Positions 2,901 to 21,700 of a DNA stretch of 22,177 nt are shown here, in pieces. Location of the stretch: the IMG/VR virus record IMGVR_UViG_3300014827_000305, positions 1 through 22,177 of that record; one strand, written 5' to 3'. Position 1 is the stretch's first letter. Every line of letters starts with the position of its first letter. The position numbers and the translations under genes were made by a program. Below the pieces are notes generated by a model. That model was not told the DNA's origin, did no database searches, and saw nothing but the letters and a program-made list of their open reading frames with translations. Source of the DNA: a virus.

Positions 2901-3072
2901 AATTCTCTCTCCTCATCAATCTATATCCTTTATTTCAGTATATTTATTTTAATAATCTATACATTTTAGTTTACCACATTTTTGAATTTTTTTGGCTATT
3001 AAGAAGTGAATTTAGAAATCTTATATCAAATACTATTATTAAAGTTATTGACTATAAATAAAATATAAATTT

Positions 3073-3093
3073 CAACATTATATTTAAATGTTG
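3073..3093. promoter_or_regulatory. Inverted repeat upstream of the repeat-protein gene
   Basis: CAACATT and AATGTTG form perfect 7-bp arms around a 7-nt AT-rich spacer, about 60 bp before the ATG at 3154. It lies in the 253-bp divergent gap between hsdM and the repeat-protein gene. A TTGACT hexamer is at 3048-3053, but no well-spaced -10 partner is evident. An operator for one of the two divergent genes is plausible, though not shown. Confidence 0.35.
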
Positions 3094-3153
3094 TAATAAT
3101 TTTAGCATTTGAACTTATATAATAATATAGTAATACTTAGGAAAGAGGTTTAT

Positions 3154-4281
3154 ATGTCTGATGTAAAAACAGTATTTTTAAAAATTGAAGAATTAAGGAA
3201 ATTTTGTGAAGAAAACGACCTAGTTGTTAAAGTTAAAAATGCTCCAAATGTTACTGAAGCAAAGGAACTAATTAAAAAAGAACTTCCTACAGGAAAAGAT
3301 GTTAAGATTGAAGTAGTTAGAAACTACAGGAGAGAGCTAAAAAAAACGACTCTTCTTGATACAAAAGAACAAATTGAAATAAAAGAATGTAAAAAGTTTT
3401 GTGAAGATAATAAACTCGTAGATAAAGTTAAAAAAGCAATAAATGATAATGAAGCATTTGAACTAATTAAAAAAGCACTACCAGAAGGAAAAAATTTTAG
3501 TCTAGCAACTGTCAAAGCTTATAGAGCAATACTTAAAAATATTGAACTAAAAATATTCCAAAAGTTTTGTGAAAAAAATGAATTAAACGATAAAATTAAA
3601 AATGCAAATAATGATAATGAGGCATGGAACCTTGTAAAAATACTACCTGAAGGAAAAGATTTTAGTCTTGACATTGTAACTGCATATAGGGAATACCTTA
3701 ATAAATATATTCAACTGGATGAATTGAAAAAAATTGATGTAGAAAAAAATATATTAGATAATATTAAGAACGCTAGCAATGATAATAAAGCATTAAAACT
3801 CATCAAAAAATTATTACCTGAAGGAAAGGATGTTGAAATTGATACTGTAATAGCCTACAGAAAATTTATTAAGGAAACGTATGTAGGTTTAGCACAAGGA
3901 GAAAAAACCGTATATTCAACCACTGAAAAGCAATCAAAAGAAATAGATAATTTAAAAGCTAAAAATAAAAACCTTAATGATGAAAATGACTCATTAAAGA
4001 ATCAAAATGAATTATTAAAACAACAGGTGAAAGCATTAAATAACCAAAGAGAGATAAAAAATGATTTTACATCTAAAATTCCAAGTCTAAATGATATTGC
4101 GAGCAGTGAAGATAAAACTAGCGTTTTTATAAATAAAGATATTCTAGTTAAAGCCACTAAATATGTTGATTCCCATAGTCTTGTAAAGCTTGAGAACATA
4201 ATTATAAATGGTCATGATTTAAATTCTGCAATAGTTCAAAGTGTATTACTTGAATTTATACTTCAAAATTCACTATTATAA
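3154..4281 (+). CDS. Four-repeat, coiled-coil protein of unknown function
   Basis: I do not recognise this 375-residue family. The ATG at 3154 is chosen because AGGAAAGAGG lies just upstream; an upstream TTG would add 15 residues without a ribosome site. The first ~240 residues hold four tandem copies of a ~50-residue helical module. Its consensus is KFCEENxLxxKIKNAxNDNEA, then LIKKxLPEGKDFSLxTVxAYRxxL. The copies begin near KIEELRKFCEEN, EIKECKKFCEDN, ELKIFQKFCEKN and QLDELKKIDVEK. A charged coiled coil follows, with leucines spaced through IDNLKAKNKNLNDENDSL and ELLKQQVKALN. The C-terminal ~60 residues include SVFINKDILVKATKYVD and AIVQSVLLEFIL, a strand-helix-helix pattern reminiscent of ribbon-helix-helix DNA-binding proteins. 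A multimeric DNA-binding or scaffolding role is an inference. It lies just before an Xre-type regulator on the same strand. Confidence 0.85.
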   Translation: MSDVKTVFLKIEELRKFCEENDLVVKVKNAPNVTEAKELIKKELPTGKDVKIEVVRNYRRELKKTTLLDTKEQIEIKECKKFCEDNKLVDKVKKAINDNEAFELIKKALPEGKNFSLATVKAYRAILKNIELKIFQKFCEKNELNDKIKNANNDNEAWNLVKILPEGKDFSLDIVTAYREYLNKYIQLDELKKIDVEKNILDNIKNASNDNKALKLIKKLLPEGKDVEIDTVIAYRKFIKETYVGLAQGEKTVYSTTEKQSKEIDNLKAKNKNLNDENDSLKNQNELLKQQVKALNNQREIKNDFTSKIPSLNDIASSEDKTSVFINKDILVKATKYVDSHSLVKLENIIINGHDLNSAIVQSVLLEFILQNSLL

Positions 4282-4447: not shown

Positions 4448-4849
4448 ATGGATAATTTAATTATTAGAATAGGTAAATTAGTAAAAGAAAAGCGTCTTGA
4501 AAAAAATTTCTCTACACAGTTGTTAGCAGAAGAACTTGATGTATCTGTTGGTCTAATTAACAATATTGAAAATGGAAAGACCGATACTTTTAATGTAGTT
4601 TTAATGGATAAGTTATGTTCAACCTTAGGTATAGATACAATATCTTTGTTTGCTAATAAAGTTGATGATGTCTTAGACCTCCTTAATATATCTAGCGATG
4701 TACCTTTAGAATTATCAGTATATTCTAATAAACTCATACACGAATATGCTACAGCAGCTATTGAGCTAAACTTTAATTCTAGTAAATTAGAGACTTTATT
4801 AAATAAGCTTATATACGAAATTAAATTTGTGGTAGATATTGAAAAATAA
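4448..4849 (+). CDS. Xre-family helix-turn-helix transcriptional regulator
   Basis: This is a 133-residue DNA-binding regulator with an N-terminal Cro/C1-type helix-turn-helix at about residues 8-62. The pattern IGKLVKEKRLEKNFSTQLLAEEL, then VSVGLINNIENGKTD, then MDKLCSTLGI is typical. The C-terminal half (from about 63) is helical with no motif I recognise and may mediate dimerisation. The ATG at 4448 follows GAGGGG with 7-nt spacing; the longer version starting at 4421 has no ribosome site. It is followed by a strong terminator, so it is the end of a transcription unit that may include the repeat-protein gene. Its place among mobile-element genes suggests control of the element's own genes, possibly through the inverted repeat upstream, but its targets are unknown. 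Confidence 0.9.
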   Translation: MDNLIIRIGKLVKEKRLEKNFSTQLLAEELDVSVGLINNIENGKTDTFNVVLMDKLCSTLGIDTISLFANKVDDVLDLLNISSDVPLELSVYSNKLIHEYATAAIELNFNSSKLETLLNKLIYEIKFVVDIEK

Positions 4850-5030: not shown

Positions 5031-5060
5031 TTCATTATGATGAATAAATTCATTATAATG
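5031..5060 (+). promoter_or_regulatory. Candidate promoter and repeated operator before the Fe-S nuclease gene
   Basis: TTCATTATgATGAAT (5031-5045) and TTCATTATaATGGGT (from 5049) form direct repeats 18 bp apart; the first copy is itself a short inverted repeat (TTCAT...ATGAA). The second copy contains TATAAT (5054-5059), a good -10 hexamer, with TTCATT 17 bp upstream as a weak -35. The nuclease ATG is about 55 bp downstream. A regulator binding these repeats would cover the promoter. Confidence 0.45.
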
Positions 5061-5112: not shown

Positions 5113-5859
5113 ATGCAAAATAAAACTTTATTTATTAGCAATACAAGTATTAATATGTTTAAAAATTGCAAGAAAAAATTTAAGTATAAATACATTGATA
5201 AAATTAATATTACCCCAATAAAATCTCATTATTTAAGTTTTGGAACTTCACTTCATAATACCTTAGCAGAGCTTAATAAACTTAATATAGAACTACAGAC
5301 CTATGAAAGCTCCATTCCTATTTTAGAAAAACATTGGATTTCAGAGGGATATGAATCTGATGAAGATGAACTTAGTTATTTTTTACAAGCCAAGGAAATG
5401 CTTGAAAATTACTGTGCTGACAGAAAAGATTTAGGTAGAATTATTTTTAGTGAAGAGATGATAAAACATTATTTAAGCAAGAATTTAACACTATGCGGTA
5501 AAATCGATAAAGTTTATGTTAATGAAAATGAAAAAATAGAAATTCTAGATTTTAAAACTGGTAATTCTTTTATCCCTTTCATAGACCTTCGTGAAGATAT
5601 ACAGCTTCCTATATATCTATTACTATTAAAATATAAGTTAGGTGTTTTTCCGTCTATTATTAGTTATTACTATATAAGCATTAATCAAAAGGTCTCGCTC
5701 GAAGTTACAAAAGAAGTTATAGATTATAGTTTATTACAGCTCAAAAATATTATTTCAGAAATCAATCTAGAAACTCAATATCCATTTACCCCTACCACTC
5801 GTTGTAATAGATTCTGCGAGTATTTCACATCATGTGAATTCTATAAAGGTATTACTTAA
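5113..5859 (+). CDS. RecB/Cas4-like PD-(D/E)XK nuclease with putative 4Fe-4S cluster
   Basis: This 248-residue protein carries the RecB-family nuclease signature. SNTSINMFKNC opens the domain, and FGTSLH gives the conserved Gly44/His48. GKID supplies Asp132 and ILDFKTG supplies Asp146 and Lys148. DIQLPIY supplies the conserved Gln164. Cys19 plus a C-terminal cluster Cys231, Cys235 and Cys241 (CNRFCEYFTSC) match the four-cysteine iron-sulphur layout of Cas4 and AddB-type nucleases, so a Fe-S exonuclease acting on DNA ends is likely. The ATG at 5113 has a perfect GGAGGTGAG upstream. No other cas genes or CRISPR repeats are present, so this is not a CRISPR locus. Its position 480 bp before the recombinase trio suggests a role in the element's DNA processing or in defence, which is inference. 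All nuclease residues seem intact. Confidence 0.88.
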   Translation: MQNKTLFISNTSINMFKNCKKKFKYKYIDKINITPIKSHYLSFGTSLHNTLAELNKLNIELQTYESSIPILEKHWISEGYESDEDELSYFLQAKEMLENYCADRKDLGRIIFSEEMIKHYLSKNLTLCGKIDKVYVNENEKIEILDFKTGNSFIPFIDLREDIQLPIYLLLLKYKLGVFPSIISYYYISINQKVSLEVTKEVIDYSLLQLKNIISEINLETQYPFTPTTRCNRFCEYFTSCEFYKGIT

Positions 5860-6125
5860 AAGCACCTTCAAATATTTAGCGCATTTCTAAATGGTTTTTT
5901 GAGTTTTATAGTTTCTCAAAACGCGCATTTCGGTTATAAAAAATTAATAATCAATATCATATATAGCTTTTATATGATTTTTATATAATAACCTATTACC
6001 CTATAAGCGTATGGTTTTTAAGATATAAATAAAATAATTTATATTAATAATCAATTACGAAATAATTCCCTTTAAACGTTTGTATAATAAACTATACACA
6101 CTTTTAGATTGGAGAAACAAAACAT

Positions 6126-6152: not shown

Positions 6153-6225
6153 GCTAGACACAAAAAAATAAAAATTTGTATCCTATATAGACTTTATATA
6201 TTATTTATATAACTTTTATTTAGGA

Positions 6226-6246
6226 TTTATATAGAACCTATATAAA
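6226..6246. repeat. 9-bp inverted repeat TTTATATAG / CTATATAAA
   Basis: Perfect arms flank AAC about 100 bp before the first recombinase operon gene. CTATATA and TTTATATA half-sites recur at 6183-6200 and in the sequence upstream. This could be a binding site, or chance structure in AT-rich DNA. Confidence 0.3.
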
Positions 6247-6341
6247 TTATATATAAAAATAAAAAATTAAGTATTTTTTGATATGACTATGATATCAAAT
6301 TATATACGATGATATTAAAAATGAAAGGTGAATTAAAATAC

Positions 6342-6491
6342 ATGAAGAAAACCAATGAAGAATCATTAAAAGTAACTATAAAATATTCTGAAAGTGCTGA
6401 TAGTTGGAATAATTTTATTAATTTCCTTATATCCTTTATGATAGATATCAATATTGTAGGTGAAATTAGCAAAAATGACGAAAACAATTAA
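6342..6491 (+). CDS. Tiny protein translationally coupled to the first serine recombinase
   Basis: This 49-residue ORF begins MKKTNEESLKVTIKY and overlaps the start of the first recombinase. The ATG at 6342 is preferred because AAAGGTG lies 11 nt upstream; in-frame ATGs at 6309 and 6321 lack ribosome sites. It has a short alternating strand (SLKVTIKY) followed by a hydrophobic helix (WNNFINFLISFMIDI). Two other tiny ORFs next to recombinases here, at 9956 and 13841, have the same strand-then-helix plan. The coupling implies joint expression with the recombinase. A role as accessory or directionality factor is only an inference from position; I recognise no known family. Confidence 0.6.
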   Translation: MKKTNEESLKVTIKYSESADSWNNFINFLISFMIDINIVGEISKNDENN

Positions 6492-8328
6492 TAGCAACAA
6501 TAAATTATTAAAAGACCCTAAAAACTATGTGGCAGTTTATGCTAGAACATCCTCAACAGTAGAGAATAACTCTATAGCCGCACAAATTAGTGAAGGAAAA
6601 CGAGTTATTAACAATAAAAATTTACTCCTTTATGCGGTGTACGTTGACCAAGTTTCAGGATTTAACACTTCCCCACCTGATAGAGTTGGCTTTGGCAAAC
6701 TTTTAGAAGATGCGAAATCAGGATGTTTTTCAACTCTGGTGGCTTATAGGCATGACCGAATTGCGAGGAACTTAAACGACTGGGTCAATCTTAAAAATCA
6801 ACTTAGAAAATTAAAAATTGAAATCATCTTTTCAGATGATAATGAGTATGCTTCTGATAATTCCGTACAGGGAGAATTTCTAGAAAACTTAATCGTAATG
6901 GTAGGAGAACTAGAGCCTAATACCATTAAGGAAAGAACCAGCGCTGGAAGATTACAAAGAAGAACTGAAGGTGCTTACAGCTCAGGTGGTCATTGCCCCT
7001 TTGGATACAATAAAATTGCTAATGATAAACTAACATCTAAAGGCAAATCCTATTACGAAGTTGACCCTTTAGCCGCAATTTTTGTACAACGCATCTTCTG
7101 TGAAGCGAAAGATGTGCTTGGTAAAAAAAAATTTACGATAGAAGATATTAAAAGAAGCCTACAAGACTATATAGACAATCTGCCAACATCAACTGTTGAC
7201 TCTCTTTCTGAAGTGCTCATACCGTATGCACATGATACTCAAGAAAGACTAATTAATTCTCACGAAAAAGAGGATATTTTTAAAAATTTTAATGAAATTT
7301 TGAATAATCACTTTAAAAAAACTAATCTGTTAGAAATTAAAAAAGACCTTATAAGAATTAAAGCCCACATAATCAAACCAGGCAATATAAACTCTTTACT
7401 AAGAAATTCAACATATGGTGGTTATATGCTAAAGAATACTAAGGAAAATGAAGAAGAAGGAGAAGAAGAAGAAGGAAAAAAAGAAAAGGAAGAAAGCATT
7501 ATCATTGAAGATAAAATTCCAAGGTTAAACAAAGCTGCTTTCATAAAACTTAATAATGTTGATTCCATTGTTGATGAAGATACCTTTGCAAAAGTTTATA
7601 GCTATATACGTATGCCTGATGTTTTAAAAGAAAAGGAACCCAATTATTTATTCAAAGGCAAATTAAAATGCGGCAATAGTAACTGCAAAACCATTCTTCG
7701 TTTTACTAATGGTTTACTTCAATGTAATTGTAAATCCTATGCTAAAAACAGTGTAATTGAAGCTTTACTAGACATTATTATTGATGATGCATTTGGAAAT
7801 AGCAAAAACGGATTTAATAATTTTCGTACCACTATCGAAGGAAAACTTGACGCCCTTAGACTCGCCCTTCAAAAGCTTAGAAATATAAAAATATGTCAAC
7901 TACAAAACTACTTAGAGGAAAAGAATAAAAGATGTATTAGAGATGTCCAAGAAAATCAGAAAGAAATAAATACTTTGCTTCAAAAAATTGCGACCTATGC
8001 AAACGAGCTTAGCTACATTAATAGACTCCAACAAGTTATTGAATGTTACAATAATTCAAGTTTTAAAAATGAAAAATCCGATTCTGATATTTTGAAAATA
8101 AAAACATCAATTATTGCTTATATTGAATCTAATCAGGATATTTTTAACCCGATTTTCAATAAATTAATTAAGGAAATAAAGGTGAGTACTTTTGAGCGAA
8201 AAAACAACATTAAATGTAGGTTCAAAATTAACTACGAATTCGAATATAAAAAACCAAAAGATAAAAAATCAAAAGGTAAAAAATCAAAAGATAAAAAACA
8301 TAGCGATATATCTACGAGTATCCACTGA
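6475..8328 (+). CDS. Large serine recombinase 1 of the trio
   Basis: This 617-residue site-specific recombinase cuts and rejoins DNA through a phosphoserine link. The catalytic domain shows VAVYARTSS, with the nucleophile expected at Ser26 after Arg24. RHDRIARN (92-99) provides the arginine/aspartate cluster. The Recombinase domain starts at GGHCPFGYN, and a zinc ribbon is suggested by LKCGNSNCKTIL...LLQCNC. The tail is very lysine-rich. ATG 6475 is chosen because TAGGTGA lies 11 nt upstream; an upstream GTG at 6460 would overlap that ribosome site. The motif GELEPNTIKERT differs from the usual QxEREtisxRt by a proline. An acidic insert (EEEGEEEEGKKEKEE) is encoded by a 47-nt purine run. The 3' end overlaps the next recombinase by 137 nt in another frame. 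Likely one member of a cooperating trio. Confidence 0.92.
   Translation: MTKTINSNNKLLKDPKNYVAVYARTSSTVENNSIAAQISEGKRVINNKNLLLYAVYVDQVSGFNTSPPDRVGFGKLLEDAKSGCFSTLVAYRHDRIARNLNDWVNLKNQLRKLKIEIIFSDDNEYASDNSVQGEFLENLIVMVGELEPNTIKERTSAGRLQRRTEGAYSSGGHCPFGYNKIANDKLTSKGKSYYEVDPLAAIFVQRIFCEAKDVLGKKKFTIEDIKRSLQDYIDNLPTSTVDSLSEVLIPYAHDTQERLINSHEKEDIFKNFNEILNNHFKKTNLLEIKKDLIRIKAHIIKPGNINSLLRNSTYGGYMLKNTKENEEEGEEEEGKKEKEESIIIEDKIPRLNKAAFIKLNNVDSIVDEDTFAKVYSYIRMPDVLKEKEPNYLFKGKLKCGNSNCKTILRFTNGLLQCNCKSYAKNSVIEALLDIIIDDAFGNSKNGFNNFRTTIEGKLDALRLALQKLRNIKICQLQNYLEEKNKRCIRDVQENQKEINTLLQKIATYANELSYINRLQQVIECYNNSSFKNEKSDSDILKIKTSIIAYIESNQDIFNPIFNKLIKEIKVSTFERKNNIKCRFKINYEFEYKKPKDKKSKGKKSKDKKHSDISTSIH
7450..7496 (+). 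repeat. 47-nt uninterrupted purine tract inside recombinase 1
   Basis: Every base on the plus strand from 7450 to 7496 is A or G, with GAA/GGA triplets and a run of seven A. It encodes an acidic-then-basic insert between the Recombinase domain and the zinc ribbon. Triplet slippage would keep the frame, while slippage in the A run would shift it. Confidence 0.8.
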
Positions 8329-9886
8329 CAAACAAGATAAAAACACCTCAAAAGAAACTCAAATGAAGACAATTGATAGGTATATTGAAGACCATAAAAT
8401 CATTGATACTAAAAAGTATATCTATGAGGACAAATATTCAGCCTCAAGAATGCCGAAAGGCTCAAGTATAGATGATGATAAACCATTTACAAGAAGAGGA
8501 TTAAATGAATTAATTAATGATGCAAAACTAAATAAATTTAATACAGTTATGGTATTTAATCATGATAGACTTACCAGAAACGTTCAAGAATCTCTACTTT
8601 TGAAATTCATCTTTAATAAACTAAGTATAAATGTGATTTACTGTAAACCTGGTGAAAATGTCGATACAGAAAGCAAAAAGATGAACACATTCTTTGAAAA
8701 TTTGTTAAATAATCTATCTGCTCTTGAATCTAATATAATAGGTTCAAGAACCAGACTAGGTAATGAATACAATATAAGAAAAGGTTTTTGGGCTGGTGGT
8801 CCACCTCCATACGGATATAAGTTAAGCCATATACAACCTGGCAGCAGAAAAAGTGTTCTTAAAATCTGCTATCCTGAAGCTAGAGTTGTAATAAAAATAT
8901 TTGATTTATATCTAAAAGGGCTTTCTCCCACTAAAATAGCTGAATATATTAAAAGCAACTACCCAAATAATAAAGATAGAAAGTGGACTAAGAACTCCAT
9001 CATATCTATAGTAAAAAACAAAGATTACACTGGTATAATGGAGTGGAATAAAAAAGGTGGAGTTCGATGTCCTACTAAACGCAAGGAAACCCAATTTATT
9101 ACTTCAGATATATACAAGGAAAATATAATTATTAAAGATGAGTTATGGGAGCAGGTTAAAAATATTAAAGCTATACAAAAAAAGCATCCTAAACTCTTCT
9201 CCTCGCCATTTCTTTTAAATGGATACCTTGTATGTGGAATATGTGGAAAAGTAATGATGGCTAAAAATAATGGTGTCAACAAAAAGAGAGTTTATTACTG
9301 CATAAAGGAAAAAAACAAATGGGAAACCTGTATAAATTCCGAATCAATAGAGACTATTGTTATCGAAAAGCTTGGAGAACATCTAACTTACATTCTTAGT
9401 AATGATGCTAAATTCAATTCATTTTATGAAAAGTATAACTTGAATTTCAACTCTAAAAAAAGTATATATCAAAAGGCTATTGCCGAACTTCAATTACAAA
9501 TCAATAAAAATAATAATTATTTAGTAGATTGTAAATCTGAAATAAATATGCTGGAAGACGAATTAAATCGTAGCGGCGAAGATTTAAATAATACTAACTC
9601 AGATTTTATAGACTCTTTAAAAGAATTACACTCCTATCTTGTTATTAATGGAAATATAATAGAAGATAAGAAACAAGAACTAAATAGTAAAGTTACTGCA
9701 ACTATCTTGAGTAAAGATACCATAAAAGAATTTATTCTACAAAAGAAAAACCTACTAGCTACTATAGAAAATAACATTATAGATAAAGAATTATATAGAA
9801 GAAGTCTATGTCTTTTGTTATACGACCTAATAGATAAAATAGTGCTTTCAGAAGACGCTAAAAATATAGAAATAATATTAAAATAA
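8192..9886 (+). CDS. Large serine recombinase 2 of the trio
   Basis: This 564-residue serine recombinase has IAIYLRVSTDKQ with the nucleophile expected at Ser44, NHDRLTRN at 123-130, and SALESNIIGSRT as the helix E region. GGPPPYGYKL opens the Recombinase domain, and the zinc ribbon is VCGICGKVM...YYCIKEKNKWETC. A coiled coil lies in the C-terminal part (INKNNNYLVDCKSEINMLEDEL). The TTG at 8192 follows AAAGGTGAG with good spacing. No ATG occurs before the catalytic serine, so the gene must start inside recombinase 1, giving a 137-nt out-of-frame overlap. The first 36 residues are a lysine/asparagine-rich extension built from 5-residue repeats (NQKIK/NQKVK), encoded by the same DNA as recombinase 1's basic tail. 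All catalytic motifs look intact. Confidence 0.93.
   Translation: MSEKTTLNVGSKLTTNSNIKNQKIKNQKVKNQKIKNIAIYLRVSTDKQDKNTSKETQMKTIDRYIEDHKIIDTKKYIYEDKYSASRMPKGSSIDDDKPFTRRGLNELINDAKLNKFNTVMVFNHDRLTRNVQESLLLKFIFNKLSINVIYCKPGENVDTESKKMNTFFENLLNNLSALESNIIGSRTRLGNEYNIRKGFWAGGPPPYGYKLSHIQPGSRKSVLKICYPEARVVIKIFDLYLKGLSPTKIAEYIKSNYPNNKDRKWTKNSIISIVKNKDYTGIMEWNKKGGVRCPTKRKETQFITSDIYKENIIIKDELWEQVKNIKAIQKKHPKLFSSPFLLNGYLVCGICGKVMMAKNNGVNKKRVYYCIKEKNKWETCINSESIETIVIEKLGEHLTYILSNDAKFNSFYEKYNLNFNSKKSIYQKAIAELQLQINKNNNYLVDCKSEINMLEDELNRSGEDLNNTNSDFIDSLKELHSYLVINGNIIEDKKQELNSKVTATILSKDTIKEFILQKKNLLATIENNIIDKELYRRSLCLLLYDLIDKIVLSEDAKNIEIILK
8248..8292 (+). repeat. 15-bp tandem repeat read in two frames by overlapping recombinases
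   Basis: Three copies of a 15-bp unit, consensus AAAAAATCAAAAGRT, run head to tail, and a partial fourth follows. In the frame of recombinase 1 they encode KPKDK/KSKGK/KSKDK; in the frame of recombinase 2 they encode KNQK(I/V). As 15 is divisible by three, gain or loss of a unit would keep both proteins in frame. Confidence 0.85.
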
Positions 9887-10132: not shown

Positions 10133-10194
10133 AAAGAAGGCATAATAATTTAAAATTATTGTGTCCAGAAAATAAATACAGGAGGGGTAGTGTT

Positions 10195-11805
10195 TTGACA
10201 GTTGCAGCTATATATGCTCGAAAAAGTAAGTTCACCGATACTGGTGATTCTATTACAAATCAAACTAATTTATGTAAGCGCTACCTAGAAACCTTAAATA
10301 TAACGGAATTTCAAATATATCAGGATGAGGGCTTCTCAGGCAAAAATATGGATAGACCTGGTTTCTCAAAAATGTACGAAGATGCTAAGCAAAAGAAATT
10401 TAATGTTCTCATTTGTTATAAGCTTGATAGAATTTCAAGAAGCGTTGCCGATTTTAGTAACCTTGCAAAAGAACTTGAAAAGCTCAATATCTCTTTTGTA
10501 TCTGTTAATGAACAATTTGATACTTCAACCGCTATGGGAAGAGCTATGATGTACATTTGTTCTGTATTCGGACAATTAGAACGTGAGACTATCTCCATAA
10601 GAATTAGAGATAACATGTACGCTTTAGCCGAAAATGGTAATTGGTTAGGCGGTGAGGTAGCAACTGGTTTTGAAAGTGAGAGGTTAACTTACTTAGATAC
10701 CAATGGTAAAGAAAAAACGTACTGTGTTTTAAAACCCATAGAAGATGAAATTGAATTAGTAAATCTTGCATTTACTAAGTATTTAGAATTGAAAAGCCTA
10801 AGCAAAGTTCAAAAATACATGCTTTCAAATTATATAAAAACAAAAAACGGTAAAGATTGGTCTAGAAACGGTTTAAGAAGTATTTTAACAAATCCTGTAT
10901 ATGTAAGAGTTGATGAGAATGTATTAAACTATTATAAAGCACAAGATATTAATGTATTTGGCAAAGTGGATAATGTACATGGAATTCTTATATATAGTAA
11001 GCGTAGTGGCAAATCTGGAAAAAACAAAGACCCAAAAGAATGGATATATGCCATATCTTCACATGAAGGGATAATAGATTCTAATAATTGGCTTAGGGTC
11101 CAAAAACAAATAAGCATAAATAAAGATAAAGCCCCTGCACTGGGAAGCAGTTCAGTTGCGCTTTTAAGTGGCTTAATACGATGTTCTAAGTGTGGAAGTT
11201 ATATGCGTGTGGCGTATGGCAAACAGTATGCAGATAGTAATATTAAAAAATTCTACTATGTTTGCAGCCTTAAAAATGATTCAGGTAAAACCCGTTGTAA
11301 TAACAGAAATGTTAACGGTATTGACCTTGATACTATGATTATTAATAAACTAAGAGATATGTCTGTTGATAAAGGTACCCTAATAAATGAATTGCAAAAA
11401 TATAAAGCAGAACTTGAAAATTCTACAGAAAATACAGAGTTTAAAAATATATTGCACGGTATTAAACAAAATAACGCTATGCTAGAAAACCTATTACACA
11501 ATGTCTCTATGACAACAGAAAAGGAAATGGTAGAGTTGCTTTTTGAGCGTATTAGTTCTCTCAAAGAGAATAACAAAGTCTTTGATAAAAGGCTACTAAA
11601 TCTTAAGGAAGAGACAGAATCGCAATCAACCACTATTCACAGCTGTGATGCTTTTATGAAGCTAATTAGGAATTTTTCTATGGCTACCGATATTGCTACA
11701 GTAAAAGAGAAAAGATTGCTGCTTTCATCCATTCTAGAGAGGGTATTTGTAGATGGAGATAGTGGAAAAGTGACAATAAAATTTTGGGGAGTAGATGACT
11801 TATGA
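10195..11805 (+). CDS. Large serine recombinase 3 of the trio
   Basis: This 536-residue serine recombinase has the clearest canonical motifs of the trio. VAAIYARKS puts the nucleophile at Ser11, followed by YKLDRISRS (75-83) and GQLERETISIRIRDNM. The Recombinase domain follows NGNWLGGEVATGFE, the zinc ribbon is IRCSKCGSYM...YYVCSLKNDSGKTRC, and the C-terminal region is helical. The TTG at 10195 is chosen because AGGAGGGG (10180-10187) precedes it; the longer frame upstream lacks a ribosome site. The gene ends inside a 10-bp dyad and only about 45 bp before manC coding sequence resumes on the opposite strand. This is where an integrase gene lies when it is next to its attachment site. It is therefore the trio member closest to the element boundary. 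Confidence 0.95.
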   Translation: MTVAAIYARKSKFTDTGDSITNQTNLCKRYLETLNITEFQIYQDEGFSGKNMDRPGFSKMYEDAKQKKFNVLICYKLDRISRSVADFSNLAKELEKLNISFVSVNEQFDTSTAMGRAMMYICSVFGQLERETISIRIRDNMYALAENGNWLGGEVATGFESERLTYLDTNGKEKTYCVLKPIEDEIELVNLAFTKYLELKSLSKVQKYMLSNYIKTKNGKDWSRNGLRSILTNPVYVRVDENVLNYYKAQDINVFGKVDNVHGILIYSKRSGKSGKNKDPKEWIYAISSHEGIIDSNNWLRVQKQISINKDKAPALGSSSVALLSGLIRCSKCGSYMRVAYGKQYADSNIKKFYYVCSLKNDSGKTRCNNRNVNGIDLDTMIINKLRDMSVDKGTLINELQKYKAELENSTENTEFKNILHGIKQNNAMLENLLHNVSMTTEKEMVELLFERISSLKENNKVFDKRLLNLKEETESQSTTIHSCDAFMKLIRNFSMATDIATVKEKRLLLSSILERVFVDGDSGKVTIKFWGVDDL

Positions 11806-11825: not shown

Positions 11826-11849
11826 AATATTGGCACTTCTGCGTCACAG

Positions 11850-12228
11850 TTTTGTGAAGAGAACATCTGCTCTCCATACAAACATTCCACTATTCCAAAG
11901 GAAGTTTCCTTTTAAAAGCAAATCTTTGGCTACTTCAGTGTTAGGTTTTTCTAAAAATCGTTCTACCCTGAATGTTGGCATATCGCCGTACACCCTATCC
12001 CCCATTTCTATATAACCATAACCGGTTTCTGGTCTTGTGGGCTGTACCCCAATGGTTACTAGCCCTCTTTTCTTATTTGCAATTTCAACCCCTTGCAGCA
12101 CAGTTTCTTTAAACTCCTTTTCATTCTCTATATAATGATCAGAAGGTAATACTATCATAGTTGCTTCCTTGTCTTGCTTTAATAGTTTGGCAGCAGATAG
12201 ACCAATACATGTAGCAGTCCCTTTATTA
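11850..12228 (-). pseudogene. manC: Internal fragment of mannose-1-phosphate guanylyltransferase (manC)
   Basis: This minus-strand fragment encodes the middle of a GDP-mannose pyrophosphorylase, starting at NKGTATCIGLSAAKLL. It continues with the family motifs MIVLPSDHYI, RPETGYGYI, RFLEKP and NFLWNSGMF. The enzyme makes GDP-mannose from mannose-1-phosphate and GTP for surface polysaccharides or glycoproteins. Neither end is a natural gene end: the upstream edge meets the recombinase 4 element at a CTTTATTA core, and the downstream edge fades after WRADVLFTKL beside the recombinase 3 dyad. Coding is open across the piece, so it is not decayed, only separated. The 5' piece is at 17811-18063, and the C-terminal part is not in the window. 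On its own it cannot make an active enzyme. Confidence 0.93.
12214..12228. other. Attachment site (one end of the 5.6-kb element)
   Basis: GCAGTCCCTTTATTA here matches GCGGTCTCTTTATTA at 17804-17818 in 13 of 15 positions, with CTTTATTA identical. On the minus strand it reads TAATAAAG, and manC coding starts exactly at this point. Together the two copies behave as attL and attR of a serine-recombinase insertion. Confidence 0.75.
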
Positions 12229-12281: not shown

Positions 12282-13844
12282 TTAAATATGGAATTTATAA
12301 AATATATCAATACTCTTTTCTTTACTTTCTTTATCTTCTGAAATAATGATTTTTTCTATCAAATTTTCTACCATATTTCTATCTAAGTTTTGAAAGCTCA
12401 AAATTTTATCAATTTCACTTTTATAGAATTTATCCTTATCATTATAATTCTCATCCATCTCGTTATATGAAGGGATTTCATTTTTTCGGCTAATTAACTC
12501 CTGTTGTTTTGTTTCAATAGTGCTAGAAATGACTTCAAAATTTCTTTCACTTACTTTTTTATTGAACTTATCTAAATATAACCCTTCAAATTGTCTATCC
12601 AGCTTTCTTAATTCTCTTTCTATGTTTATTAATTTATTATCTTTGTTTCCTTTTTTATTAACAGACTTATCTATTTTATTATAAATATCTAAGGTGTTAA
12701 ATTTTGTTATAGCGCAATTCGATAAATCCGTAATTATAATTTTCTTCAATTCTTCCTCCTTAAGCGAGTGTGATGTGCACCTTCCTCCACCCATTTGACT
12801 GTTAGTACATTTATATCCTTTGTAACTTTTTCTAAATGACATACTTCCTCCACATTCGCTACATTTTAATACTGATGAGAAAATATATATATTTTGATCT
12901 TTGTATCTGTAACTTTTAGCCCTCTTAATTATAAGGTTTTGCACTTCATCAAATGTTTTTTTTGATACTATACCTTTAAATTCTCCTCCATATATCCATT
13001 CATCTTTTAAAGTTTTTTTTACTTTTTTTATTTTATAGCTAACTTTTTTCCATCTTCCTTGAACCATAACGCCACCATATTTGGGATTATTTAAAATTGA
13101 TTTAATTGTATTATTAGTCCATAACCCAAATTTAGAAAAAGCGAAATTATTTAATTTTGCTGAAGGTGGTTCTATTCCTTTTAAATTTAAATGTGTTGCT
13201 ATTTTTCCAAACCCGTATCCTTTAATGTACAACTTAAATATTTCTTTCACAATCTCAGTTGTTTCATCATCTGTAGCTACTAACCTTATTGTTTTTACAT
13301 TACCCTCATACTCTTCTTCAAATCTATATCCATAAGGTGGTTTACTTGCAATTGATGACCCTCTTATCATTCTTTGCTTTAATCCATCCCTGGATCTTCT
13401 TGAACAGTCTTTAATGTACATTTCATTTAGTATGTTCTTAAAAGGTATGATATCATTTATTTCCTCTAATGTGTCTACATTATCAAAGACTGATATAAAA
13501 CGAACTCCATTTACTTTAAAATACTCTTCTAAATAATATCCTGCTGTTATATAATTTCTGGAGAATCTTGAAAGATCACGAGTAACAATCATGTTTATTA
13601 TGCCTTTATCAATATCTTCCTTCATTTTGATAAAACTTTTTCTTTCAAAATTAGAGCCAGAAAATCCCGCATCTTCATATACCTCTATAAGATTATATAT
13701 AGACTCTTTATCTGCTTCACTTTTTTCAAGTAACCATTTTTTTAAACTTTGTACCTGTGCAGGCATTGACTCTTGCTGCTCCTTCTTATCTGTTGAAACT
13801 CTTGCATACAATGCTACATTCCATGTTTTTCTTAAACAATTCAT
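12282..13844 (-). CDS. Large serine recombinase of the manC-inserted element (TnpX/TndX-like)
   Basis: This 520-residue serine recombinase very likely inserted the surrounding 5.6-kb element. WNVALYARVSTDKK puts the nucleophile at Ser17; TRDLSRFSRNY (88-98) is the DLSR-type arginine motif common in TnpX/TndX transposon recombinases. SRRSRDGLKQRMIRGSSIASKPPYGYRFE opens the Recombinase domain, and the zinc ribbon is LKCSECGGSM...YKCTNSQMGGGRC. A lysine-rich coiled coil lies near the C-terminus. The ATG at 13844 overlaps the stop of the upstream tiny ORF as ATGA, so the two are translationally coupled. The stop codon is about 54 bp from the attachment core, the usual place for an integrase beside its site. 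All catalytic residues appear intact, so excision may still be possible. Confidence 0.96.
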   Translation of the reverse strand: MNCLRKTWNVALYARVSTDKKEQQESMPAQVQSLKKWLLEKSEADKESIYNLIEVYEDAGFSGSNFERKSFIKMKEDIDKGIINMIVTRDLSRFSRNYITAGYYLEEYFKVNGVRFISVFDNVDTLEEINDIIPFKNILNEMYIKDCSRRSRDGLKQRMIRGSSIASKPPYGYRFEEEYEGNVKTIRLVATDDETTEIVKEIFKLYIKGYGFGKIATHLNLKGIEPPSAKLNNFAFSKFGLWTNNTIKSILNNPKYGGVMVQGRWKKVSYKIKKVKKTLKDEWIYGGEFKGIVSKKTFDEVQNLIIKRAKSYRYKDQNIYIFSSVLKCSECGGSMSFRKSYKGYKCTNSQMGGGRCTSHSLKEEELKKIIITDLSNCAITKFNTLDIYNKIDKSVNKKGNKDNKLINIERELRKLDRQFEGLYLDKFNKKVSERNFEVISSTIETKQQELISRKNEIPSYNEMDENYNDKDKFYKSEIDKILSFQNLDRNMVENLIEKIIISEDKESKEKSIDIFYKFHI

Positions 13845-14392: not shown

Positions 14393-17300
14393 TTGAATAA
14401 AATATTAAAGCCATTTACTTGTGCATTAGTAGCGATATTTGCACTTTCCACTTCAGTAACTAGCTCGACTTTAGGATCATTAGGTGTAGATACTGTTTCA
14501 GCAGCTACAGTTGCAACACCAGCACCAGCACCTACTCCAACACCTACTCCAAGTTCATCAGGATCATCAAGTTCATCAAGTTCATCAAGTTCATCAGGAT
14601 CATATAGTTCAGGATCATCAAGTTCATCAACAGCAACAACTCTAAGCGGTACACTCCAATCTGGATCTAGAGGTAGTGCTGTTACACTTTTACAAACTAA
14701 ACTTAATACCGTAGGGTATAAGCTTCATACTGATGGTATATTTGGAAGTTTAACTGTAGAAGCAGTTAGAAACTATCAAGCTCTTCATGGTCTTGCAGTT
14801 GACGGAATAGCTGGACCAGCTACTTTCTTAAAATTAACTCCACCTGTAGTTGCAAAAGTAACTTCATTTGCATTAGGTTCTACCGGTGTTAAAGTTAAAT
14901 CTCTACAAACTAAACTTAATACAGTAGGGTACAAACTTGTTGTTGATGGTACGTTTGGAAATTTAACTAAAATTGCAGTTGCAAACTATCAAGGTCTTCA
15001 TGCTCTTGCAGTTGATGGAATAGCTGGACCGGCTACTCTTGCAAAATTATTTCCAGTAAAAGCAACAGTTGCAGTAGCACCTGTACTTAAATTAGGTTCT
15101 AGGGGTACTGCTGTTAAAGCTCTACAAACTAAACTTAATACAAAAGGTTACAAACTTGTTCCAGATGGTATCTTTGGCAATCTAACTGTTGCTGCAGTTA
15201 AGAACTATCAAGCTCTTCATAATCTTGTGGCTAATGGAATAGTTGGCGCAACTACTTATGCAAAATTAAATGCAGTAGTTAAACCACCAGTAGTTACTCC
15301 ACCAGTAACAACACCACCAACTGATGTTACAACAACAGCTTCAATAGTAGATAATATAGCTGCTTTTAAAACAGCAATTAGCCCATCAGGTAAATGGATA
15401 GCAGCTACTGTAAAAGATTTAACTACTACTGATGCTCTTGTTTTAGATGGCGATTTAAATGAAGCTGGAGTTGTAAAACGTGAAATAGCTCTTTATGCTC
15501 AAACTAATGGTGTTGTTTCTGCTAGATACACTTTAACAGCTCCAAAATTAACTATTAAGAGTGCAAATGCTAATATCTCAAACGGAACTTTCAAGGGTGA
15601 TATTTACGTAACAGTACCAAACTTCCAATTGAAAGGCGCTAAAGTTGTCGGAAATATACATTTCACAACTCAAGCAATTAAAGATACATTCAAAATGGAT
15701 GCTACAAGTTCAGTATCAGGTTCACAAATTGTAGATGCACCACCAACTGATGTTGTAACAACTGCTTCAATAGTAAATACCGCAGCTAAACTAGAAACAG
15801 CAATAAGTGCTCCAGCAACAGGCGGCACATGGATTGTTGCTATTTTGAATAATATAACATCTACTAAAGATCTTGTTTTAGATGCCAAATTTTTAAATGG
15901 CAAAGCAGATGCTGTAACAGCTGTTCCTCTTGTTCAACGTAAATTAGCTCTTTATGCTCAAGACGCTGCTCATGTAGTAACTGCTAGATATACATTAACA
16001 GCTCCATCATTAACAATTAAGAGTCCTAATGCTAGTGTAGAACATGGAACTTTTAAGGGTGATGTTTACGTTAACTCTCGTAACTTCAAATTAATAGATA
16101 ATGTTATTGTAGGAAATGTTTATGTTCATTCAACTGAATTTGCTTTATCAAAAAATGCTAAAATACAAGGAAATGTATATTTTGATAATATAGAAGCACA
16201 AAAAACATTCACAATGGAAGCTGGAAGTACTGTAACAGGAACTCAAGGATATAAAGCAACAACAGCAGTAGATTCAGTAACATCTGCTTCAAGAGTAAAT
16301 GATCCAGTTGCTTTCGAAAAAGCAATAAGCCCAACAGGTACATGGATCATTGCTGCACAAAGAGATATGGTAGTTAATCATGAACTTGTCTTAGATGGTG
16401 ACGTTAGAAAGGTTGACACATCTGTTCCACCTGTACCAGCTGCAGCAGGACGTAAGATAGCTCTTTACTTCCATGATGGTGATAACTATACAACTGCTAG
16501 ATTTACTCTAACAGCTCCAAAATTAACTATTAAGAGTATAAAATCTAACATTTCAAAAGGAATCTTTAAGGGTACCCTTAATGTAGCAGCTACAGGCTTC
16601 AGCTTAGTAGATGCTAGAATTGAAGGAGATGTATATTTTGCTACTCAAGCTATCAAAGATTCATTTACAATGGATGCTACAAGTTCTATAACAGGACAAC
16701 AAATAGTAGGAACAGCACCTGATGTTGTAGCGGCTGCTTCAATAGTAGATAATGCTGCTGATTTTGCAACAGAAATAGGCACTCAAGCTACAGGCGGTAA
16801 TTGGATTGTTGGTCTTAACAAAGATATAGTTAGTCCAACTGAGCTTGTTATAGATGGACCTTTCTTAAATAAAGCAACTCCTCCAGTTTCACAACGTAAA
16901 ATAGTTCTTTACACTAGACAACTAAATGCAGCTGGTGTTAATGTTGAGACTGCTAGATTTACTATAACAACACCAAAATTAACAGTTAATAGCCCAGATT
17001 GTAGCATTAGTAACGGAACTATCAAAGGTGACCTTGTTGTTAATACAACTAACTTCAAGTTATCAGATGTTCATGTTACAGGAGATGTTCACGTTAATGC
17101 AACAAACTTCACTATACTTAAGGGCACTAAAATTGACGGAAAAGTAATTTTTGGTACTCAAGGATCTAAAGATACATTCAAAATAGATACAACTGCAACA
17201 GGATTATCTGGAGCTACAAGTTCTGTAACTGGAACACAGGCTGTAGAAGTAGTAGATGCTGTAACAACAGCTTCAATAGTAAAAACTGATACTGCGTTAG

Positions 17301-17722
17301 TAACAGCATTAAGTGCAAGTGGTAATTGGATTACTGCTATATTGAATAATATAACTACAACAAAGGCTTTAGTTGTAGACGGAAACTTTTCAAATACAAA
17401 AACTCCACCTGTTGTTTCACGTAAAATAGCTCTTTACACTCAAGCTAAACAGGATGGTGTAAATACTGTAACTAATAGATTTACTTTAAAAGCTCCATCA
17501 TTATCAGTTAATAGCCCAAGTACTAGTATTCAACACGGAACTTTTATAGGTGATGTTAATGTTTCAGCTGTAAACTTTGGTTTAATCGATGCCACAATTA
17601 CAGGAAATGTGCATTTCGCTACTCAAGCACTTAAGGATGCATTTATGGCTACTCCACTAGATGCTACAAGCAAAGTAACAGGAACAGTTGATGTTGTAGC
17701 AGCAGCTTCAGCAGCAGAGTAA
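14393..17722 (+). CDS. Secreted peptidoglycan-binding protein with five beta-rich repeats
   Basis: This 1109-residue exported protein starts at TTG 14393 after GGGGGG. A signal peptide covers about 1-37 (KPFTCALVAIFAL, then VSAA). A Pro/Thr and Ser/Gly-rich linker runs to about 83. Three PG_binding_1 domains lie near 88-148, 158-219 and 231-292 (LQTKLNTVGYK, then DGIFG, then NYQALH, GIAGPAT), which should anchor it to the cell wall. After a Pro/Thr linker come five ~150-residue repeats starting near 315, 457, 629, 780 and 958. Each has TASIV, LVLDG, RYTLTAPKLTIKS, GTFKGDVYV, GNVHF and ATSSVTG. The short strand periodicity suggests a beta-solenoid. There is no LPXTG motif and no catalytic domain. 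It is the only cargo of the manC-inserted element. Its composition is clearly less AT-rich than its neighbours, suggesting separate origin or high expression. Confidence 0.93.
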   Translation: MNKILKPFTCALVAIFALSTSVTSSTLGSLGVDTVSAATVATPAPAPTPTPTPSSSGSSSSSSSSSSSGSYSSGSSSSSTATTLSGTLQSGSRGSAVTLLQTKLNTVGYKLHTDGIFGSLTVEAVRNYQALHGLAVDGIAGPATFLKLTPPVVAKVTSFALGSTGVKVKSLQTKLNTVGYKLVVDGTFGNLTKIAVANYQGLHALAVDGIAGPATLAKLFPVKATVAVAPVLKLGSRGTAVKALQTKLNTKGYKLVPDGIFGNLTVAAVKNYQALHNLVANGIVGATTYAKLNAVVKPPVVTPPVTTPPTDVTTTASIVDNIAAFKTAISPSGKWIAATVKDLTTTDALVLDGDLNEAGVVKREIALYAQTNGVVSARYTLTAPKLTIKSANANISNGTFKGDIYVTVPNFQLKGAKVVGNIHFTTQAIKDTFKMDATSSVSGSQIVDAPPTDVVTTASIVNTAAKLETAISAPATGGTWIVAILNNITSTKDLVLDAKFLNGKADAVTAVPLVQRKLALYAQDAAHVVTARYTLTAPSLTIKSPNASVEHGTFKGDVYVNSRNFKLIDNVIVGNVYVHSTEFALSKNAKIQGNVYFDNIEAQKTFTMEAGSTVTGTQGYKATTAVDSVTSASRVNDPVAFEKAISPTGTWIIAAQRDMVVNHELVLDGDVRKVDTSVPPVPAAAGRKIALYFHDGDNYTTARFTLTAPKLTIKSIKSNISKGIFKGTLNVAATGFSLVDARIEGDVYFATQAIKDSFTMDATSSITGQQIVGTAPDVVAAASIVDNAADFATEIGTQATGGNWIVGLNKDIVSPTELVIDGPFLNKATPPVSQRKIVLYTRQLNAAGVNVETARFTITTPKLTVNSPDCSISNGTIKGDLVVNTTNFKLSDVHVTGDVHVNATNFTILKGTKIDGKVIFGTQGSKDTFKIDTTATGLSGATSSVTGTQAVEVVDAVTTASIVKTDTALVTALSASGNWITAILNNITTTKALVVDGNFSNTKTPPVVSRKIALYTQAKQDGVNTVTNRFTLKAPSLSVNSPSTSIQHGTFIGDVNVSAVNFGLIDATITGNVHFATQALKDAFMATPLDATSKVTGTVDVVAAASAAE

Positions 17723-17774: not shown

Positions 17775-17803
17775 CGCTAAAAATGACCTATAAAGTTAAT
17801 AAG

Positions 17804-17818
17804 GCGGTCTCTTTATTA
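17804..17818. other. Attachment site (other end of the 5.6-kb element)
   Basis: GCGGTCTCTTTATTA is the second copy of the core seen at 12214-12228. manC coding from 18063 runs in frame up to this core. After it the frame continues only as ETALLTL and stops, which is element sequence. Confidence 0.75.
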
Positions 17819-18063
17819 CTAGGCTCTACATATATATTAGCTTTATTGATTTCTGGAAGTTCATCACAAATTTTTTCAAAATACTCTTCATTAGTAACTA
17901 CATAAATATTTTCATTGCTAACTAAACATTTTATTCTATCCACAGTGCTTCTTAAAAAGCTCTTATTATTAATAATATTCAAAAACTGCTTTGGGTTTTG
18001 TGCCCGAGATAGAGGGTAAAGTCTTGTTCCTTTTCCACCTGCTAAAATTAGTACATATAACAA
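17811..18063 (-). pseudogene. manC: 5' fragment of mannose-1-phosphate guanylyltransferase (manC)
   Basis: This is the first 84 codons of a GDP-mannose pyrophosphorylase. It holds the nucleotide-binding signature LAGGKGTRLYPLS at residues 7-19 and NPKQFL at 23-28, then TVDRI and NIYVVTNEEY, ending at VEPSNK. The start is a TTG at 18063 after GGGGTGG. Reading on past the insertion point gives only ETALLTL and a stop. When joined to the fragment ending at 12228, the frame continues as GTATCIGLSAA, giving about 209 continuous residues before the second break. The expression signals are still in place, so a truncated, inactive peptide may be made. The gene is disrupted rather than degraded. Confidence 0.93.
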
Positions 18064-18153
18064 AATACCACCCCAAATTATTACTCATTTCATTTTATGA
18101 AACATAAGTCTATGTTGTGAGCATAATTTATAATATTGCTTTTATAGTAAATT

Positions 18154-18734: not shown

Positions 18735-21700
18735 CTAAAATTTATTTAATTTTTGTGTTAATCTCTCCATAATTATATTAGGGTTTCTATAAAATTCACT
18801 TGCACGAATTTTATAAAACTCCCAACCAACTCTTTCAAGGCACATCTGCATCTCATACTTCTTTTGCCAATTATAAATCTCGCCTTCTGAGGTGCCAATA
18901 CATTTAATTGCTATTTTTTTATAATTCATACAACTACCTGATAATGAGGAATTCGATTCTACAACGAAATCTATGGTGTATTTTCCTACTTTAACCTTTG
19001 GCGTAACCTTGTAGCCGCAATCTTTTAAACACTTTTCTACGTGCTCCTCAAAATCATTTAATAATAAATATTCAGAAGATGCAATTTCTTCCTTAGGTTC
19101 ATTCTGCTCAAGACAATATTTTAAGAGAGAGTATCTAACACATTTATTGCTAAGATCCTCTAAATCAACTGAATGAAATAACCACATTTGATTCTTAGCA
19201 CGGCTGGCAGCCACGTTAAATCTTCTTATATCTGACCCTTTAGTTAAAGTCGAAAATTTAGTATTACTTGCAATAACCATAGATAGGAACATTATATCCC
19301 TCTCATCTCCTTGAAAGGAGTATGCATCCCCACATATAAGCCTTCTTTTAAGTATTTCCGCCATGCCAAGTTTATCTATCAACATGCTTAGTATTAATTC
19401 AGCTTGAATGTCCCCTAGTAGTGATATAACTCCCATAGTCATCCCATTATACCTCTCGTCACTACAACACCCTAATATCTTCTCTACAATGCTTTCTGCC
19501 TCTTTTATATTTAGAGACTTAGTTTCATCCTTAAATCCGTCGATGACCCTAAAAGTTACTATAGATGGCCCAACCCTTTCTTTACTATCTATTCTTCTTA
19601 AAGGTATTATTTCATTAGAATAACACAATTCATTACTAAATCCAATTATCTCAGGAGCGCATCTAAAATGTTCCTTTAATAATATTCTTGCTGGAAATAC
19701 TCTTAATGCTGTATTGTATAAACTAGTTTTTAAATCAAACCATAACGCATGTGGAATGTCCTGTAAATACGTATCTATTAAGGTTTCTACAATATTATTA
19801 TCTTTTCCAATGGCTTCAGGACTTATTTGCTTTTCATCCCCTACAATAATTGCCTTCTTAGCCCTCATTAAAACAGTTATAGCTGATATGTCACTTTGAC
19901 TGCTCTCATCAACAATTACCACATCGAATAAATTATCTGTTAGCTTTAAATTTTCCATAACTCTGTTTATCGGCATAATCCATACTGGAATTACATCCTT
20001 GCAATTGTCCATCTCTTTTTGAGCAATTTTTCTATACTTTGCTGCCTGAGTTCCTGTGCCTTTCCCTATCCTCTTTATGGCTTCCATCCAAGTAAATAAA
20101 CTTCTTTTCTGGACCTCAGTAGTTCGCTCAATTTGATTAAACCAGCTTTTTTTAGAAACAAGTTCTCTTATAATTATTTTTTCTTTATTTTTCTCATGTG
20201 TTATGTTTTTTTCTATTGCTTCTACATCGACCTCTTCAAATTTTAATAAAAGATCATTCCATTTTTTCCACTTCCATGAATTTTCCCAATCCAGATTTTC
20301 TAAATTCTTTTTGATTTTTCCTTTTTTATTAATAATGTTTTCAAGTAAAATGGGGCAACTTGCTTCTAATTTCTTGCTTAACTCTGTTAATTCTAACACC
20401 TTGTAAGCTATTTTAGTTAAACTTTCTATTTCCAAATATATAGCTTGTACACCCTTAATGTTTCTTTCATTTATAGCATAACGTAGTTTTAGTATACACC
20501 CCTCGCCTTTGAAGGTGTTTTTGATCCCTTCCATTTCATTTCTTAATTTATTATATTTATTAATAAGCTTTAAACTCTCTAATCCATTCTTAAGATAAAT
20601 ATATGATTGTTTTTCGTGCCACAAAAAATTACTTGTAAAATTTTTATCTAGGAAAAAATTAATTATATTATTTCTGAAGTCTCTGTCCCAATTTATAATT
20701 ATCTCAATGCTTGAAGTGCCACTTGCCACGTCGCTTACATAATTTAAATCTGAATCTTCTATAATATTCCCACCATATTCTTTAACTGTATTATTCCAAA
20801 TATTTTTAAGTTCTCTTTCTAATAACTGTTGCTTTATATATAAATCAATAACCATTACTTGCTTATGGTTATTGATTAACTCATAATCTACTTTTAAGTC
20901 ATCATATATGTATTTAAGATTTCCATGGAGAACCTTAAATAGGATTCCTAATTTACCTTTTTCACTAATTGTTTTTGCTACAATATCAAAGTCAACTTTA
21001 AATTTGTTTATATCAATTCCACTTGGCAATTCTAAATTATGATTATTTAATTCTTGCTTAAATTTACTTATATTTTTTATATATTCATTACTTTTATTTA
21101 CTAATTGCTGCCACATACCTTTAGCCTCATTACTAGAATAATAATGAGTCAAAACATTGCCTAGCCAGTTGTTTTCAAAGCCTTCTAGACTTTCTATAGC
21201 ATTATCTACAAGTTTTAGTAATCTTCTATTTCCATAATCTATAGAATCAACATTATTTAAGTCTTTTATATTATTTTCATAAGCATATTGCTGCTGCTCT
21301 AATTTTAATAGTTCTGATATTTTATTACATAAATCATCTTTATCAGGCAATACCGCAATGTATTTATCTATGTTATCTATTTCCTCAATTTGCTCTTTTG
21401 TAATTATTTTTGATAATGTAACTAGCTTTATAAATTCTTCATTAGATAGAGGATTTTCCTTATTAAAATTAATCTTATCTACTAGCCAATCATAATTATT
21501 TTCATTATCTTTAACCCACTTAGCCATAAACATTAAGGTATATTCTTTTCCTTCATATTCTATCTTCTCATTTTCTCTAATTTCAATACATTTCAACTCT
21601 TTATATAAACATTTCTGCATCTCCAGGCAATTACTTTGTTTATATTTTAAAAGTTTTATTTCTTTACGTAATTCTTTAGTGTCCATGGATAAATTTTCTG

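Follow-up and report, generated by a model that had tools for sequence, protein, structure and literature searches.

The window analysed here, a stretch of 22,177 bases, is an IMG/VR virus record, yet the genes read in it are those of a bacterial element. Their order is hsdS, hsdM, a gene encoding a four-module protein, an Xre regulator, a PD-(D/E)XK exonuclease, a small ORF, three serine recombinases and a piece of manC. The Xre regulator (4448..4849, + strand; HTH_19, E 1.5e-7) is a conserved companion, with 24-38% identical Xre proteins in nine sister loci, and is followed by a Cas4-like/PD-(D/E)XK exonuclease (5113..5859, + strand; PDDEXK_1, E 3e-22), which adjoins the first recombinase in sister elements. 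The small ORF, seen by eye (6342..6491, + strand), precedes recombinase SR1 (6460..8328, + strand; Resolvase, E 8.9e-27), after which come SR2 (8192..9886, + strand), with Resolvase, Recombinase and Zn ribbon domains, and SR3 (10159..11805, + strand; family match), located beside the manC junction. The integration site is marked by a middle piece of manC (11847..12227, - strand) that matches four Clostridium ManC proteins at 67-73%, the closest ManC found being that of Clostridium thailandense (74%), and manC also stops near the same residue beside SR3 in the sister stretches L118, L125 and L148. The claim of an earlier note, made from the DNA alone, that this is a mobile region is supported.

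The window holds two pieces of the interrupted manC (11847-12227 and 17803-18066), one cut adjoining SR3, and the first part of the gene is separated by an insert of ~5.6 kb carrying a further serine recombinase (12282-13844) and a peptidoglycan-binding repeat protein (14393-17722). A close copy (77%) of this insert recombinase lies beside the manC piece of L118, and the contig of L147 ends in another manC stretch. To the right of the manC site, 18735-22151 encodes a large SF1 helicase with an MTES_1575 nuclease domain, which approximates the candidate defence family PDC-S37 (E 2.7e-51). Three same-strand serine integrases at one element end, with an insertion that disrupts a gene, are described for streptococcal ICEs (PMC4701971), and the triplet layout of the window, which shares the element-end position, the common strand and the disrupted target gene, is therefore not new in kind. 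The window differs in its target, manC, and in the genes that accompany the recombinases, namely Xre, a Cas4-like exonuclease and defence cargo; along its 22 kb, no gene for conjugation was recognised. A C. difficile island was set aside as a parallel; its three serine recombinases are spread one per sub-element and not in tandem (PMC6814731).

The four-module gene (3154..4281, + strand) encodes a protein of 375 aa from an ATG at 3154, with a ribosome-binding site (ggaaagagg) at 3140-3148. Modules 1 (aa 8-64; 3175..3345), 2 (aa 75-128; 3376..3537) and 3 (aa 129-184; 3538..3705), all on the + strand, were delimited by pairwise repeat alignment, invariant columns and AF2, and module 4 (aa 186-242; 3709..3879, + strand) by repeat alignment and invariant columns, AF2 confidence being lower here. 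The earlier note had read the ORF as carrying four diverged modules, and these are real: all six pairs of the ~56-residue repeats aligned with z 15.7-22.6, and for each pair none of 2,000 shuffles was as good. The repeat alignment has 14 columns that are invariant across the four modules, and at the DNA level there are four 105-nt copies of the repeat, one of which is matched by the other three at 70-73% identity. The dN/dS among repeats is 0.29-0.55, indicating divergence under protein-level constraint, as for selected protein units. The module motif that had been quoted (KFCEEN...LPEGKDFS) is a blend of repeats: the exact match to KFCEEN is confined to repeat 1 and that to LPEGKDFS to repeat 3, and repeat 4 is without the KFC part. 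Modules 1-4 carry charges of +4, +4, -1 and +1, respectively, and are thus near neutral.

Structure prediction, which the note had proposed as a check, was performed with AF2 on the full protein without relatives (pLDDT 71.2 overall, most of repeats 1-3 reaching 76-92 and repeat 4 less) and on one repeat with a 4-row alignment in which the other three repeats served as rows (pLDDT 84.6). Helical modules and a long helix were predicted, each module folding as helix-short helix-helix-helix with short strands in repeat 1 only, but the C-terminal tail was at pLDDT <50 over most of its length. The helix is continuous at aa 229-307, and weak matches to coiled-coil families lie around aa 246-302 in the family libraries and the PDB sequence search. 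On the strength of the model and these matches, aa 246-307 (3889..4074, + strand) probably forms the coiled coil that had been claimed for this protein, although its heptad score is not above shuffles (79/200 as good). The C-terminal domain (aa 318-375; 4105..4278, + strand) was recognised by its likeness to L148_6, a protein of the sister stretch L148. The end of the protein had been described as ribbon-helix-helix (RHH)-like; it is a genuine conserved domain common to the two proteins, but its RHH character, seen by eye only, is unconfirmed, with no match to the tail or tail profile in Pfam and only insignificant matches in the PDB. By eye, the putative helices of the tail are ~14 residues apart, compared with the usual short turn in RHH.

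Neither the modules nor the tail matched anything significantly in Pfam, PHROGs, NCBIfam or PADLOC; the weak family-library matches mostly fall on the helix at ~aa 246-302, PADLOC returned 0 families at E <= 0.1 for the protein, and the whole protein gave weak coiled-coil matches in a PDB sequence search. No protease or ligand-binding domain was found by the family libraries, and no toxin fold or toxin family match by the family libraries or PADLOC. The protein is as unrecognised as first described, family libraries and the PDB having given weak matches only, and none of the searches matched it significantly to a DNA-binding family. A non-exhaustive literature search found no description of this protein. 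The pattern S-x-x-T-V-x-x-Y-R, which we take to be that of an integrase core-binding domain, was considered and dropped, there being no Pfam match to such a domain among those listed.

The modules weakly resemble HTH DNA-binding domains. A module profile matched the DNA-binding domain of Sleeping Beauty transposase in the PDB (E 0.093 over 44 profile positions), the DNA-binding domain of StbA (7pc1) came second in Foldseek (E 3.1), with Z 2.7 and an rmsd of 3.4 for 53 aligned residues, although its profile comparison with the module was not significant (hhalign probability 0.9%, E 0.061 over 14 columns), and Fur/PerR gave structural Z values of 2.6-3.0. Fold searches against the PDB and BFVD gave nothing at E <= 0.001 among the matches listed. 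Because these matches are weak and the top structural Z (5.2) is that of GIPC1 GH2, which is protein-binding and non-DNA-binding, the HTH likeness is treated as a lead only.

Tblastn of plasmids and phages, with the protein or L148_6 as query, found no relative of the protein, and neither did plasmid searches with SR2 and L127_15 (a sister-stretch protein) or megablast of the whole window against plasmids and phages. Viral contigs likewise yielded none with the protein, the module profile, a degenerate back-translated DNA pattern, L148_6, Xre or an Xre profile; the last of these searches identified L151, in which the recombinase unit has a distant sister but the four-module protein has no relative. 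Genome contigs gave no relative with short exact peptide patterns of the protein, which are able to detect close relatives only. In the family of the C. thailandense genome G001, read as Clostridiaceae, 7 of the 206 genomes had threshold matches with the protein as query, and the module profile matched 6/206 genomes of the family, 1/225 of the order, 1/398 of the phylum and 2/7 single genomes. Every one of these loci except L088 and L089 (E ~0.008, with internal stops) was read, and the matches, to enzymes, transporters, and low-complexity or coiled stretches, were judged to be chance. The module profile search that the earlier note had suggested, run against the PDB, viral contigs and genomes, gave no significant family or homologue. 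The genome-search negatives are weak, because the 206-genome protein search scored at most nine candidates per genome and missed a true homologue in genome G198 that synteny revealed later.

Searches of the same 206 genomes with the neighbouring genes gave matches to SR1 in nine (E <= 1e-30), to the exonuclease in five (E <= 1e-10) and to Xre in 17 (E <= 1e-12), of which the best 11 places, down to E 9.6e-24, were taken to be the element's own Xre. Twelve sister stretches (L118-L127, L147 and L148) were read. The Xre-(exonuclease)-SR1-SR2(-SR3) unit recurs across Clostridium relatives and is present as Xre-(exo)-SR1-SR2 in 10 of the 12, although SR2 is broken up in L127, as is SR1 in L148. No Xre was found in L124, where by eye IS3-type genes lie upstream of SR1, and L147 has an Xre with no recombinases within the stretch read. 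The small ORF before or overlapping SR1 was seen in the window (6342-6491), L123 (~7624), L125 (~8950) and L148 (~9750), and recurs in sister elements; a SWNN motif is visible by eye in three of these four.

Relatives of the protein were found in 3 of the 12 sister stretches. L148_6 (282 aa) sits between hsdM and Xre in an element beside manC, as in the window, which answers the question of flanking genes raised by the earlier note. In a four-sequence comparison it is 41% identical to the C-terminal 77 residues of the window protein over 83 columns (E 5e-6), and aa 299-375 align with it at z 10.5, with none of 5,000 shuffles as good. Two weaker relatives, a protein of 293 aa in L123 and, in L125, the product of a gene broken into ORFs of 161 and 63 aa, are encoded directly upstream of Xre and have a similar C-terminal end; their tails match the C-terminus of L148_6 better than most shuffles (29/5,000 and 9/5,000 as good, respectively), whereas the window protein C-terminus has no direct match to them (578/5,000 and 3,907/5,000 as good), and their kinship to the window protein runs through L148. 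A profile of the four tails, built including the carriers, found no further relative below E 0.2 in the fetched loci, and from the seven genomes belonging to the genus of G198 it recovered no relatives beyond the two already known. Four elements (the window, L123, L125 and L148) thus have a same-strand gene of this kind immediately before Xre, and the proximity to an Xre regulator pointed out in the earlier note reflects true companionship. An Xre without such a protein found upstream is present in L118-L122, L126, L127 and L147. The N-termini of the relatives differ in length and content. By eye, L148 and L125 each have one module-like stretch, compared with four in the window, which touches on the note's question of variable repeat counts, but the likeness of the relatives' N-termini to the modules is not significant (best 79/2,000 shuffles).

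L118-L127 and L148 form a family of defence-carrying elements in Clostridium relatives with a recurring Xre-(exonuclease)-serine recombinase unit. Type I restriction-modification (RM) cargo is near the protein or its relative in the window, L125 and L148, with hsdM as the next gene in all three, and Qat is the cargo in L123. Cargo of the other recombinase lineage includes Gabija (L121), Hachiman (L122), and Ppl and GmrSD (L127). A PADLOC scan of ten cargo proteins, in which L119, L120, L124 and L126 were not represented, gave no match for either L118 protein. In the SR2 tree, from which L127 (SR2 split) and L147 (no SR2) were left out, all four carriers form a five-row group with L124 (92/97), and in the Xre tree, from which L124 (no Xre) was left out, the four carriers form a five-row group with L118 (86/91). 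This clustering is suggestive and not strong, because the carrier groups are unstarred in both trees and the carrier label needs two changes in each, with 28/500 (SR2) and 27/500 (Xre) shuffles as low. The protein follows the recombinase lineage more than it follows the cargo, and is therefore probably an element-backbone gene of one recombinase lineage.

In the other lineage, further uncharacterised proteins are encoded directly after SR2, in L119 (14014-14661), L120 (4822-5511), L121 (13863-14414), L122 (13147-13749), L126 (13103-14074) and L127 (13024-13719). By eye, these have an N-terminal helical unit followed by a linker, with a RHH-looking end in those of L119 and L127 that is unconfirmed by Pfam and PDB. 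From this similar order of parts, they are possible counterparts of the window protein.

A palindrome, TTCATTATGATGAA, at 5031..5044 contains the only exact TTCATNNNNATGAA in the window. A scan of the window, L151 and all 12 fetched stretches except L124, left out for having no Xre, found 14 exact copies of TTCATNNNNATGAA in 13 loci totalling ~232 kb. Thirteen of the copies lie a short way upstream of exo, SR1 or the small ORF, and the remaining one (L151) is between Xre and a SR3-like gene. Outside the window, the copies are at 11156 and 11171 in L118, 9705 in L119, 9702 in L120, 9846 and 9860 in L121, 7533 in L123, 8834 in L125, 9053 in L126, 9082 in L127, 9600 and 9615 in L148, and 3359 in L151, and there is no exact copy in L122 or L147. 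With up to one mismatch allowed, each locus has 1 to 8 matches >1.5 kb from Xre, and the motif was picked by eye from the same sequences, without a shuffle control. Judged by its recurrent position, the palindrome is a good candidate for the Xre operator of the exo/recombinase operon. A second palindrome, CAACATT-N7-AATGTTG, upstream of the four-module gene was rejected, as its relaxed form is at chance level.

The window also has TATATA-like repeats in 11-bp phase, as a short cluster at 5957..5988 and as a possible binding array of seven repeats in exact phase at 6184..6255 (0/1,000 local shuffles as good). Arrays are present in L125 (7335-7406; seven TATATA-like copies upstream of the relative, 0/1,000 shuffles) and L118 (10211-10260; five copies between exo and SR1), so that 11-bp arrays lie in non-coding stretches of three sister elements; no array reached five copies in the other fetched stretches, L122 having four copies once. 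Among control AT-rich loci 2/44 had an array, both being the same place in genome G079 as L118, and TATATA repeats at 11-bp phase directly upstream of the four-module gene (2901-3153) are at chance level. That the array is the binding site of the protein finds no support in the sister elements, and it cannot be attributed to the protein, because L118 has an array with no relative found and L123 and L148 have a relative with no array.

Two plasmid protein families provide analogies. The KfrA protein of RA3, which has a part in plasmid maintenance, forms oligomers and binds a set of five direct repeats of 9 bp (PMC7783346); the KfrA-type proteins of IncP-1/IncU plasmids, as described there, and the window protein are alike in being element-encoded, with a small N-terminal unit (DNA-binding in KfrA) and a long helical tail (a predicted helix in the window protein). 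The window protein differs in having four units at the N-terminus, in ending with a distinct conserved domain, and in being carried by a chromosomal recombinase element instead of a plasmid. The N-terminal domain of the KfrA family is named KfrA_N in Pfam. It is absent from the Pfam matches listed for the whole protein (E <= 1) and for each module (E <= 10), in searches where HMMER filters may lose very weak matches. StbA of R388 binds two sets of five 9-bp repeats with a 2-bp spacing and thus an 11-bp period (PMC3098194). This period is shared with the window array, although that array does not track the protein, and the fold likeness of StbA/TraK-type proteins to the module is the weak one given above. 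StbA has one such unit, on a reading of its 141 aa, compared with four in the window protein. Likeness to KfrA and StbA is offered as analogy and not as membership of either family.

The reading we prefer, and to which we give an even chance on the basis of these analogies, is that the protein is an oligomeric DNA-binding partner of Xre that belongs to the element backbone and controls excision or maintenance. In this picture, DNA would be bound by adjacent compact helical modules at the N-terminus, of which the window protein has four and two relatives apparently one. The long helix would drive oligomerisation, and dimerisation or a contact with DNA or with Xre would fall to the conserved C-terminal domain, the net effect being control of element excision or of its maintenance. 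What the sequences show is repeats, a conserved C-terminus, a fixed place upstream of Xre and an association with lineage in place of a single cargo; DNA binding, oligomerisation, partnership with Xre and the role in maintenance or excision are inferred. The weak HTH likeness of the modules and the similarly ordered proteins of the other lineage speak for this reading, and the missing DNA-binding family match, the near-neutral modules and the GIPC1 GH2 match speak against it.

The leading alternative, though we think it unlikely, is that of an antirepressor or sensor, in which the fast-changing N-terminus would sense invading DNA or protein and the C-terminus would relieve Xre repression of the recombinase operon. 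The model for this is ICEBs1, in which ImmA relieves ImmR. The position of the gene, which immediately precedes Xre on one strand in all four carriers, the conserved palindrome before the exo/recombinase operon and the contrast of a conserved C-terminus with a diverged N-terminus are all consistent with it, but the family libraries revealed no protease or ligand-binding domain and the C-terminal profile shows no resemblance to Xre. Slightly less likely again is a structural scaffold that bridges element or host proteins and makes no DNA contact. The near-neutral charge of the modules, the long predicted helix and the protein-binding nature of GIPC1 GH2 point that way; Z values as low as 5.2 are, however, common among small helical domains, and the gene sits in a recombination element together with a regulator. 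The near-neutral modules and the missing family matches lend some weight to the scaffold and antirepressor explanations.

An anti-phage function, as a repeat scaffold or sensor in a defence system with or without the adjoining type I RM, was among the roles proposed in the earlier note, and we now regard it as improbable. The neighbours in the element family (Gabija, Hachiman, Qat, Ppl and type I RM) and the hsdM gene next to the protein in the window, L125 and L148 would suit such a role. The protein, however, has no PADLOC match, occurs with RM in three elements and Qat in one, tracks the recombinase lineage and no single defence system, and by eye has a similarly ordered protein after SR2 in the other lineage. 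Least credible is that the protein and Xre form a toxin-antitoxin or addiction pair by which the element is stabilised. In favour of this, Xre is weakly like HipB-type antitoxins (TIGR03070, E 1.4e-6, below the family cut-off) and adjacent to the gene on one strand, but no toxin fold or family match was found and the Xre of L118-L122, L126, L127 and L147 has no such protein found upstream.

A family of proteins with variable N-terminal modules, a long helix and a conserved tail, encoded directly upstream of Xre, was encountered in none of the libraries searched. Synteny places this apparent orphan, and makes it more likely to be among the moving parts of a defence-shuttling element than defence cargo. 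The recurrent Xre-exonuclease-recombinase unit and the conserved palindrome make control of element movement directly testable. A more speculative reading, on which we would place little weight, is that tandem-duplicated HTH-like modules read element-specific phased repeats, with module number and sequence setting which copy is recognised and the C-terminal domain signalling to Xre and the recombinases; if true, a change in module number or kind would set incompatibility between defence-carrying elements that compete for the manC site. Should the protein control excision or retention, it would provide a handle on the movement and mutual exclusion of Clostridium-type defence islands.
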